DNA of 64,000 nucleotides from Gamarada debralockiae. Taxonomy: Eukaryota; Ascomycota; Leotiomycetes; Helotiales; Hyphodiscaceae. The stretch lies in contig NXFV01000863.1 of NCBI GenBank assembly GCA_002803225.1, forward strand, positions 1-64,000, in the 5' to 3' direction. The first letter of the stretch is position 1. Every line of letters starts with the position of its first letter. The position numbers were made by a program, and so were the translations under genes. Under the pieces are notes generated by a model. That model saw only the letters and a program-made list of their open reading frames with translations, was not told the DNA's origin and did not search any database. Shown here one piece after another: positions 159-2,271 of this stretch.

Positions 159-2271
159 TTAATGTACCATGCTCTTGCCAATCTCACTCTGCCATCCCTT
201 CGCTCTCTCGAATCCGTTTGAATGTGTCTGGTAATCCATCATCGCTTGATAGACTTCTTCTTGGGTGTTGAGGACGAAGGGTCCGTATTGGACGACTTTT
301 TGGTCGAGGGGTAGGCCGGCTACGAGAACTGTTGAATATTTTGTTAGCAAATGTACTATACAGGTGGGATATGCATGACAGCACAAGAATGTAACTGAAA
401 GGAAGGTTGAAAAAGTAACGTTGCTGATCAGATGATTCAGGGGCAGTTAGAGCGAAGCGAGCGGCGCAGTGGAGCAAGTGGACGTATACATTCCTCATCT
501 CAAGGAGGCATCCCTCACTGATGAAGGAAAACCTAGCTCCCTCCAATTGTGAAAAGTGTCATGTGATGGAGCTATGCAGGGTGGGTGATATTGAAGCGAA
601 GCCCTCGGGAAAGTCTCGGAGCTCCATCCCATTGGCCCAGCGTCCGCACAAAGCTTCAAAATCTAGATATGCTTATATATCAACATAAGGGAAATTTTCT
701 CCAACCAAACCTAGCAAACAGTAACAATTCTGAACGCGTTTGTGGTTTAGTGGTAAAATCCATCGTTGCCATGAGATATCACTTATCTCCCAACTTCGAT
801 GGGCCCCGGGGTAAGAACTTCAAAGAAACAGATCATTCATCCCCAAGCTAACCTTCAGAATAGTTCGATTCCCGGCGAACGCATTTTTCTTTTAGCCTTT
901 TGAGGGCTTAGGATGATTTTTTTTTGGCCCCTCAACTTAGAGGGACCTTCATGAGGTTGAATATGAACTTTTGCTTCAACAAACCAAGCAAACATCAGGT
1001 TGGCTTGAACCAAAGATCGGCATTCATGGTTTAGTGGTAAAATCCATCGTTGCCAAAGACACTTGTCTACAGCTTCGATGGGCCCCGTGTTCGATTCACG
1101 GTGAATGCAGGAGTTCAATTCTTTTTGAAGAGCGTTTGGAGATGATTCTTTTGAAGGGGCCTTCACTTGAAGGCTAAGGGCAGAGGGAACCCAAACATAT
1201 TTTTTGGTCCATTTTTGAGCATTTCTCACTTAAGCGAGAACCTGGGGCTTTTCGGTCCCAGAGAAACTCCGAAGAGCCTCAACTTCACTTGAATTTTTTG
1301 GCGGAATCCACTTTGACATGCAAGTTGCCGAAACGGAAATAGAAACCACGTGACTTACTGAAATGGCCATTCTCCTTCGCATCAGCCTCCACCTCTGCCG
1401 TAACTTCATCTCCCTTCTGCTCGAAGACCACATTGTGATACTGCCCCACAATCGTCTTGTCGTTCCCCACTCCAAAAGCCGTGCTTCCACTCAACGTATA
1501 AGCAAAAGCGTTCCATCCCTCCGGTAACTGCTGCTGGACCTTTCCACCAGGCTTGATCTCAATATCGAAGATCCAAACGGGGGTATATGCAAGCTCCTGC
1601 ACGCTGTCCACACTATGACTTTGTCCGGAAATGATCTTGATGTGCACCTTTCCTTCATCGACATCGATATTCGGAATCTCGGTCGCCCTCAAGTCGCGGT
1701 ATCTCGGCTCGCATTTCTTCAATTTCTCTGGCAAATCCACCCATAATTGCATGCCGATATTTGCACTTCCGTCGGGATTCTGGCGTGGCATCTCTGCATG
1801 CATGATGCCTTTGCCCGCAGTCATGAACTGCAAGTCGCCAGCCTCAATTGTCCCTGCATTGCCCGCGAAGTCCTCATGATCAACAGCACCCTCCAACAGG
1901 TATGTAATCGTTTCCTGGCCTCGATGTGGATGGTCTGGAAAGCCTGCTCCAGGTTTGATTGTAAAATGGTCGAGCATGAGGAAGGGGGAGAAGTTGCGCA
2001 GCTGTGGCGTGCCAATGGATCTGCGGACGCGGGCGCCAGCACCTTCGGATTGCTCAATTGCCAAAAAGGCCTTTCGGATAGCTCGTGGGATCGTCATATT
2101 GGCGGATTTTGGTTCGCCGTAAATTTCAATTGGTGGAAAGACAGGAAGTCCTTGAAAGCCCGTTAGAGTGCGGTTTGAAAAGAGGTCAGTGATTGTTGTA
2201 AGAAGTGTTTCTTTGTATGCGATTGATAAGAATGCGATGATGATTGAAAAAAGGAAGAAGAGAACCCTCAT
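159..2271 (-). CDS. Pirin family cupin protein, two exons
   Basis: Exons are 2271..1359 and 328..159, 360 aa. The pirin core begins near residue 59 and keeps the metal-ligand pattern: HPHRG, then a later GIMHAE (two His, then His and Glu). The C-terminal exon reads ILVAGLPLDQKVVQYGPFV across the splice, exactly the pirin continuation. The donor is GTAAGT at 1358; the acceptor AACAG ends at 329, with a GCTAAC branch site. That makes a 1,030-nt intron, extreme for this genome, and it holds two tRNA-Gly genes on the other strand. The first 58 residues are an extension with a hydrophobic stretch at residues 4-18 that could be a signal anchor. Met59 (codon at 2097) would give a conventional cytosolic/nuclear pirin of 302 aa. 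Pirins are iron-binding cupins linked to transcription cofactor or quercetinase-like roles; the role here is not known. Confidence 0.9.
736..883 (+). tRNA. tRNA-Gly(GCC), copy 1, with anticodon intron plus a second intron-like insert
   Basis: The acceptor stem 736-742 (GCGTTTG) pairs with 876-882 (CGAACGC), with one G-U pair. The D-arm matches the classic fungal tRNA-Gly, GGTTTAGTGGTAAAATC. Anticodon GCC lies at 768-770 in a CATCG/CGATG stem. A 24-nt intron (772-795) sits at the canonical 37/38 position. The T-stem CCGGG (806-810) and loop TTCGATT (864-870) are separated by a 53-nt insert. Removing it gives CCGGG-TTCGATT-CCCGG, a perfect T-arm. Discriminator A is at 883, followed by a T5 Pol III terminator (884-888). 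Compared with copy 2, both acceptor and T-stem carry paired changes that keep base pairing, so the fold has been maintained. Whether a mature tRNA is made depends on the insert being removed; otherwise this is a recently interrupted gene. Confidence 0.75.
811..863 (+). other. Spliceosomal-type intron inside the tRNA-Gly T-arm
   Basis: The 53-nt insert starts GTAAGA, has a consensus branch site CTAAC at 848-852 and ends TAG at 863, 12 nt after the branch adenosine. Length and signals match the protein-gene introns of this window. It lies exactly between the 5' strand of the T-stem and the T-loop, directly upstream of the B-box sequence. Seen: the signals and the restored tRNA. Inferred: that it is removed. 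The canonical tRNA splicing endonuclease acts at 37/38, so it would not be expected to cut here. Confidence 0.65.
1020..1109 (+). tRNA. tRNA-Gly(GCC), copy 2, with canonical intron
   Basis: The acceptor GCATTCA (1020-1026) pairs with TGAATGC (1102-1108), with discriminator A at 1109. The D-arm is identical to copy 1. The anticodon stem is CATCG/CGATG with anticodon GCC at 1052-1054 and a 19-nt intron at 1056-1074. The T-arm CCGTG-TTCGATT-CACGG (1085-1101) is uninterrupted. A T5 terminator follows at 1122-1126. This copy lacks the T-arm insert of copy 1 and is a normal Pol III gene. It lies antisense inside the large pirin intron. Confidence 0.92.

Follow-up and report, generated by a model that had tools for sequence, protein, structure and literature searches.

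The nearest precedents for the locus described here are the spliceosomal introns of ascomycete rDNA and the bulge-helix-bulge introns that interrupt Cyanidioschyzon tRNA genes at similar positions. Bhattacharya et al. reportedly described spliceosomal introns in the nuclear rDNA of ascomycetes in 2000. The U6 snRNA genes of some fungi also carry spliceosomal introns, which resemble those reported here in that they lie in a Pol III transcript (a probable one in our case) and differ from them in that this transcript is not a tRNA. We know of no prior description of spliceosome-type introns in tRNA genes. Eukaryotic pre-tRNA splicing is presented, in the review passages devoted to it, as the job of the tRNA endonuclease and ligase. 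Non-canonical eukaryotic tRNA introns are named for nucleomorphs and Cyanidioschyzon merolae in the corresponding passages of a tRNA intron review, which takes the bulge-helix-bulge as the determinant for the splicing endonuclease (PMC4090602). The sections on the tRNA-Ile of C. merolae give introns with this fold at 12/13, 37/38, and 53/54 (PMC9602550). According to the excerpts of a study on rDNA introns, the nuclear rDNA of ascomycetes, mainly lichen fungi, contains ectopic spliceosomal introns, one of them of 57 bp, and yeast spliced a lichen-fungal rDNA intron out of Pol I transcripts (PMC8527467). Among the matches listed, the portions of the open-licence literature covered held no spliceosomal tRNA intron, and the string "spliceosom" is absent from the main text of the tRNA intron review (PMC4090602), of the tRNAscan-SE 2.0 paper (PMC8450103), and of a further tRNA review (PMC4033280). 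The parts consulted of the Cladonia grayi genome paper mention tRNA for organelles only (PMC6652019).

The locus lies in the window, by which we mean the whole stretch of 64,000 nucleotides of Gamarada debralockiae DNA that was analysed. It consists of a tRNA-Gly(GCC) gene interrupted twice, and a second gene for the same tRNA is found nearby:

683..689, forward strand: upstream element ACATAAG (A[AC]ATAAG), common to other tRNA genes of the genome
736..771, forward strand: exon 1 of tRNA-Gly(GCC), tRNA positions 1-37 (Infernal and ARAGORN; identical in the paralogue on contig C67)
772..795, forward strand: canonical 37/38 intron of 24 nt (Infernal, ARAGORN)
796..810, forward strand: exon 2, tRNA positions 38-53 (ARAGORN)
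811..863, forward strand: spliceosomal-type intron of 53 nt at 53/54 (sequence, ARAGORN, paralogue, boundary test)
811..816, forward strand: 5' splice site GTAAGA of this intron (GTAAG kept in the C67 paralogue)
848..852, forward strand: branch-point motif CTAAC (CTGAC in the paralogue; sequence)
861..863, forward strand: 3' splice site TAG (same in the C67 paralogue)
864..883, forward strand: exon 3, tRNA positions 54-73 (sequence, ARAGORN)
884..888, forward strand: run of five T, likely a Pol III terminator (sequence)
1020..1109, forward strand: neighbouring tRNA-Gly(GCC) with a 37/38 intron only, used as comparison copy (Infernal)

Our reading, to which we give a probability of about 0.92, is that positions 811-863 are a U2-type spliceosomal intron in a nuclear tRNA-Gly(GCC) gene and that the spliceosome would remove it from the pre-tRNA. 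Like the ascomycete rDNA introns, as far as these are described in the excerpts, such introns would be ectopic spliceosomal introns in a stable non-coding RNA (PMC8527467); unlike them, they have a tRNA as host, probably made by Pol III, and a single gene can hold as many as five of them, with exons as short as 7 nt. C. merolae shares with this fungus several introns per tRNA gene, including sites 12/13, 37/38, and 53/54, but the introns described in the sections concerned are of the bulge-helix-bulge kind (PMC9602550), whereas those found here have GT-AG ends and a branch motif, and show such a fold no more often than expected by chance. Archaea and nucleomorphs are similar in having introns in several arms, often more than one per gene, with 53/54 as an archaeal site; they differ in that, in the passages of the review that treat them, the archaeal sites are of bulge-helix-bulge type and the Guillardia introns measure 3 to 24 nt (PMC4090602).

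The initial annotation had proposed a spliceosomal-type intron of 53 nt at 811-863 with the motifs GTAAGA, CTAAC, and TAG, and the coordinates, the length, and the motifs all proved correct. The presumed branch A is at 851, and the TAG end follows 12 nt later. A G shared by both ends lets the insert fit two registers, 810-862 or 811-863, of which only the latter gives GT...AG. The AG of the intron end stands directly before TTCGATTCC in exon 3, which retains what we take to be the B box core. Infernal scored the gene at 26.4 bits, below the gathering threshold of 29, modelling the insert as a giant T-loop; the neighbouring copy, which lacks the T-arm insert as had been noted, scored 47.3 bits. 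Removal of the insert restores a perfect tRNA, again as claimed: ARAGORN read tRNA-Gly(gcc) from the joined sequence alone and called no tRNA in the unjoined one. Among 5,460 motif-blind deletions in the gene, two shared the top score and one of these was the GT-AG deletion. This result and a paralogue with the same arrangement indicate that the insert is not due to chance. It is not a canonical tRNA intron, since it sits at 53/54 and the gene has a separate 37/38 intron. Group I and group II introns were also ruled out: the insert is just 53 nt long, and the 10 Rfam matches obtained at 700-1150 with E values up to 10 include no intron family. The catalytic core of such introns takes about 200 nt or more.

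A query with the whole gene against the genome (54.3 Mb in 1,112 contigs) found three loci, namely the gene itself, its neighbour, and a paralogue at C67:11145-11307. The paralogue specifies exactly the same mature tRNA (71 nt) as the window gene, and its T-arm is interrupted at the same site by a 58-nt insert with GTAAGC, CTGAC, and TAG. Alignment of the two inserts gives 45 identities in 53 positions and several indels; GTAAG, CTRAC, and AATAG are kept. Since the paralogue shares this diverged intron, the T-arm intron predates the duplication that separated the window and C67 genes, and the suggestion that a very recent intron gain had been caught is not supported. Likewise, a fresh insertion or a random insertion in a dead copy was rejected, given the paralogue and the recurrence of such introns in 15 genes of the genome. 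The 5' half of the tRNA-Gly occurs three times in the assembly (up to three mismatches), and two of these three genes have the T-arm intron; no match to it was found in the viral contig and genome contig collections. The neighbour without the insert could represent the ancestral state or a loss, and it could alone be sufficient to supply Gly(GCC). About 2 kb from the C67 gene lies a further 3' half of this tRNA-Gly(GCC), its T-arm intact (C67:8922-8955, L063); a search for its 5' half found none, and it is perhaps a relic.

At least 34 introns of spliceosomal type were found at 22 positions in at least 15 nuclear tRNA genes with 13 anticodons, the window gene included, and six genes (the window gene and five others) are interrupted at 53/54. 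At least 13 other nuclear tRNA genes have no such introns; the catalogue is a partial inventory. Several searches contributed to it. A search for the splice motifs (GTANG, CTRAC, and AGTTCGANNCC at intron-like spacing) gave six matches, five of them in tRNA genes (two Gly, Lys(CTT), Arg(CCG), and Arg(TCT)) and one in what by eye is a protein gene, against none in the reversed control. A search that used no splice motif, asking for an intact B box with a T run downstream, returned 39 rows against 12 in the control; one locus may yield several rows, and these corresponded to 26 distinct loci. Twelve of them are readable tRNA genes, five uninterrupted and seven with introns of spliceosomal type: removal of one or two introns gave Thr(CGT), Gly(CCC), Arg(TCG), Leu(CAA), and Glu(TTC), and two further loci are genes for tRNA-Ala(AGC), each carrying five introns. 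The remaining 14 were not solved; inspected by eye, some fall within protein-coding sequence, and a few resemble tRNAs. Ile(AAT), Lys(TTT), and Thr(AGT) came from solving 410 anchors (intact TTCRANNC) in the loci that were fetched. Since the anchor had to be intact, introns within the T-loop would be missed. A looser T-arm pattern gave 64 rows against 69 in the reversed control and was useful only after structural solving, by which the three genes just named were added; 51 of the 64 rows were fetched and taken in (L032-L061 and 20 regions), and one more is L030. A still looser B-box pattern gave 140 rows against 99 in the control.

Of the interrupted genes, the five tested directly, the window gene among them, either stay below the cut-off of the standard covariance model or give no match. 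RF00005 gave 17 matches over the genome among the 63 scored of 1,952 candidates, and none was one of the 15 genes. Rfam searches of the loci L021, L027, L029, L030, and L031 found no match up to an E value of 0.5; the interrupted genes for the C67 Gly, for Lys(CTT), for Arg(CCG), and for Arg(TCT) (L030) are among those without one. Other loci were seen along the way. A second tRNA-Ile-like locus at C561:3463-3494 (L123) consists of a 5' half for which no full acceptor stem could be formed. Several tRNA-like elements with long stretches between their halves cluster at C68:96979-98000 (L009 and L067). Two related tRNA-like 3' ends lie at C352:110197 (L073) and C215:47784, and in the former the anticodon-loop region contains a short repeat and U33 could not be placed. 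The genome also has two U6 snRNA matches, at C507:132-234 (L118; 103 nt, 78 bits) and C1066:53003-53125 (L119; 123 nt, 44 bits), the second of which may be degenerate or carry an insert. One 18S pattern had no match in the assembly.

The genes were solved with a cloverleaf scorer written for this analysis, which could remove up to three candidate introns and required a branch motif in each. After intron removal, the 15 interrupted genes scored 24.6 to 29.5, and the uninterrupted nuclear tRNAs of this genome scored 24.4 to 29.2. With the real motifs, 10 of 32 loci were raised from below 22 to at least 26, which happened for none of the 32 with five permuted motif sets; the permuted sets were allowed two introns and the real set three, the third being needed by L030 alone. 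Decoy anchors reached at least 26 in 6 of 264 cases, and all six were known tRNA genes, including that of the window. None of 3,000 shuffles in which the T-arm and the 3' end were kept reached 22, with three introns allowed. The boundaries were also left free in a motif-blind test that covered 27 of the 34 introns in 12 genes (excluding Ile(AAT), Lys(TTT), and Thr(AGT)). The deletions scoring at least as well as the chosen reading included a GT-AG pair in 24 of the 27 introns, the exceptions being one GC-AG and two GT-TG introns. At most four deletions were equally good or better in 16 introns, and another boundary outscored the chosen one in six. The variable-arm intron of the Leu gene was barely constrained (1,287 of 4,186 deletions as good), in a test that allowed an anticodon intron one base too short and thereby lowered the score. 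ARAGORN called a tRNA in all 15 joined genes, with the same identity in 11 and a different one in 4, and in only 2 of the 15 unjoined genes, under other names. When one intron was retained, it still made a call in 14 of 34 cases, apparently with that intron read as part of the anticodon loop, and agreed on the identity in 3 of the 14.

The strongest case of conservation is the pair of tRNA-Ala(AGC) genes at C160:51704- (L068) and C991:110858 (L116), each with five introns of spliceosomal type and the canonical one. These five-intron readings extend a partial solution by eye and stand outside the three-intron shuffle null. The joined exons are identical in the two genes: GGGCTTGTGG, TTTAGTGG, TATAATA, the anticodon arm, TGGTCCA, and the remainder of the T-arm with the acceptor strand. 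Identities in the aligned introns 1 to 5 are 34/50, 35/49, 38/45, 36/47, and 39/47 (182 of 238 positions when pooled), with many indels. Even so, the 5' site, a CTRAY motif, and the final three bases are retained in each intron, apart from a single change in one 5' hexamer; intron 5 ends in TTG, not AG, in both copies. In the assembly, the Ala(AGC) anticodon arm is matched exactly twice, each time in one of these interrupted genes, and the reversed control has no match.

In their anatomy, the 34 tRNA introns resemble mRNA introns. They measure 47 to 63 nt, except for one of 138 nt (median, 53 nt), and all have ends of the U2 type at the 5' side: 32 start with GT and two with GCAAGT, as in the GC-AG class (Arg(TCT) at 15/16, L030, and Thr(AGT) at 53/54, L094). 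The 3' ends are CAG (15), TAG (13), AAG (4), and TTG (2), which gives AG in 32 of 34 and TG in the other two. A YTRAY motif lies 9 to 19 nt from the end in every intron, with a median of 11 nt from the branch A; because the solver demanded the motif, and the reading of the Ala genes by eye also looked for it, its presence is not independent evidence. The window itself has 18 candidate mRNA introns (selected by an open-frame rule, set 5' starts, YAG ends, CTRAY, and a length of 45 to 99 nt), with a median length of 55.5 nt and a branch distance of 12 nt. The likeness to the mRNA introns of the window pointed out in the initial annotation is thus upheld for the 53-nt insert, and its idea of a spliceosomal-type intron in the T-arm is strongly supported, at the level of sequence, by paralogue conservation, mRNA-like anatomy, recurrence in 15 genes, and clean controls. 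A codon-score search for mRNA introns in the window found one. The 5' sites GTTAGT or GTTCGT, which the mRNA intron scan of the window did not admit, are present in 7 of the 34 tRNA introns (L068, L116, L077, L062, and L094). A HET-domain protein (PF06985) encoded in the window and a homoisocitrate dehydrogenase indicate a fungal host. HET domains are a mark of filamentous ascomycetes.

The introns of the D-arm make transcription by Pol III not self-evident, since those within 8-19 split the A box, whose position we assume here to be the usual one. Many introns are of this kind, and spliceosomes normally act on Pol II transcripts, as the excerpts of the rDNA intron study have it (PMC8527467). 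We still regard it as improbable that Pol II, rather than Pol III, transcribes these genes and that they are spliced as Pol II transcripts. A run of at least five T follows within 40 nt downstream in 12 of the 15 interrupted genes, by eye (7 of the 15 come from the search that demanded TTTT). Five T in a row occur in none of the 34 tRNA introns, against 1 of the 18 candidate mRNA introns, and four T in a row in three tRNA introns. The element A[AC]ATAAG, which uninterrupted tRNA genes share, lies within 90 nt upstream of 9 of the 15 interrupted genes and of 3 among 12 other tRNA genes, compared with 10 of 1,356 random stretches of 90 nt; the pattern was picked after viewing the sequences, and its distance is 23 to 53 nt. 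The upstream element and the downstream T runs together suggest that the interrupted genes are live and driven by Pol III.

The inserts could instead be non-canonical introns cut by the tRNA endonuclease at a bulge-helix-bulge, as in archaea or Cyanidioschyzon, and the passages cited above make 53/54 a known site of such introns in archaea (PMC4090602) and in the tRNA-Ile of C. merolae (PMC9602550). We hold this to be very unlikely: the ends and branch motifs are of the mRNA type, the folds of the two interrupted Gly copies differ, and a helix spanning the junctions was found in 8 of the 34 introns, against an expectation of 10.4 for shuffled ones, in a coarse test limited to minimum-energy folds. 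Least credible is a reading of the interrupted genes as pseudogenes that took up unrelated insertions. A short insertion in one of many synonymous eukaryotic tRNA genes is usually read in this way, in the wording of the review passage (PMC4090602), the neighbouring Gly copy is intact, and L063 and L123 look relic-like by eye; yet paralogous genes have identical exons while their introns diverge, the 15 genes give full cloverleaves once the introns are removed, both Ala(AGC) genes found are interrupted, and the insertions all start with GT or GC and in 32 of 34 cases end with AG. A recent spread of a mobile intron-like element (introner) would explain why many introns of like length occur within one class of genes, and it too is very unlikely. 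The whole-gene query, of limited sensitivity, found the insert only in the gene itself and its C67 paralogue, with no other near-identical copies, and by eye the intron sequences are not mutual copies outside the two paralogue pairs.

The spliceosomal reading starts from direct observations, namely the anatomy of the introns, the exact restoration of the tRNA, the conservation of exons and splice signals, the recurrence in the genome, and the controls. In the route that we propose, Pol III would probably transcribe the tRNA-Gly gene into a precursor with two kinds of introns. The spliceosome would recognise GTAAGA, CTAAC, and TAG and join G53 to T54, restoring the T-arm, while the tRNA endonuclease and ligase would take out the 37/38 intron and the ends of the precursor would be trimmed as usual; the order of these steps and the function of the product are what we infer. 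Judging from the genes themselves, the spliceosome very probably helps to make the tRNAs of this fungus. It is also quite likely to be an obligatory part of tRNA maturation, with some isoacceptors, such as Ala(AGC) with its five spliceosomal-type introns and exons of 7-8 nt, encoded only by interrupted genes.

If our reading is true, this fungus would have a second tRNA-splicing pathway besides the tRNA endonuclease and ligase, and its spliceosome would work on structured RNAs, probably made by Pol III, with exons of 7 nt. Interrupted tRNA genes would be overlooked by ordinary annotation, and tRNA counts obtained with such tools may be too low. The tRNA introns would also offer a system for the study of intron gain in which the exact product is known. 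Translation capacity would be tied directly to splicing and, if the spliceosomal step is obligatory, protein synthesis would depend directly on the splicing of probable Pol III transcripts.
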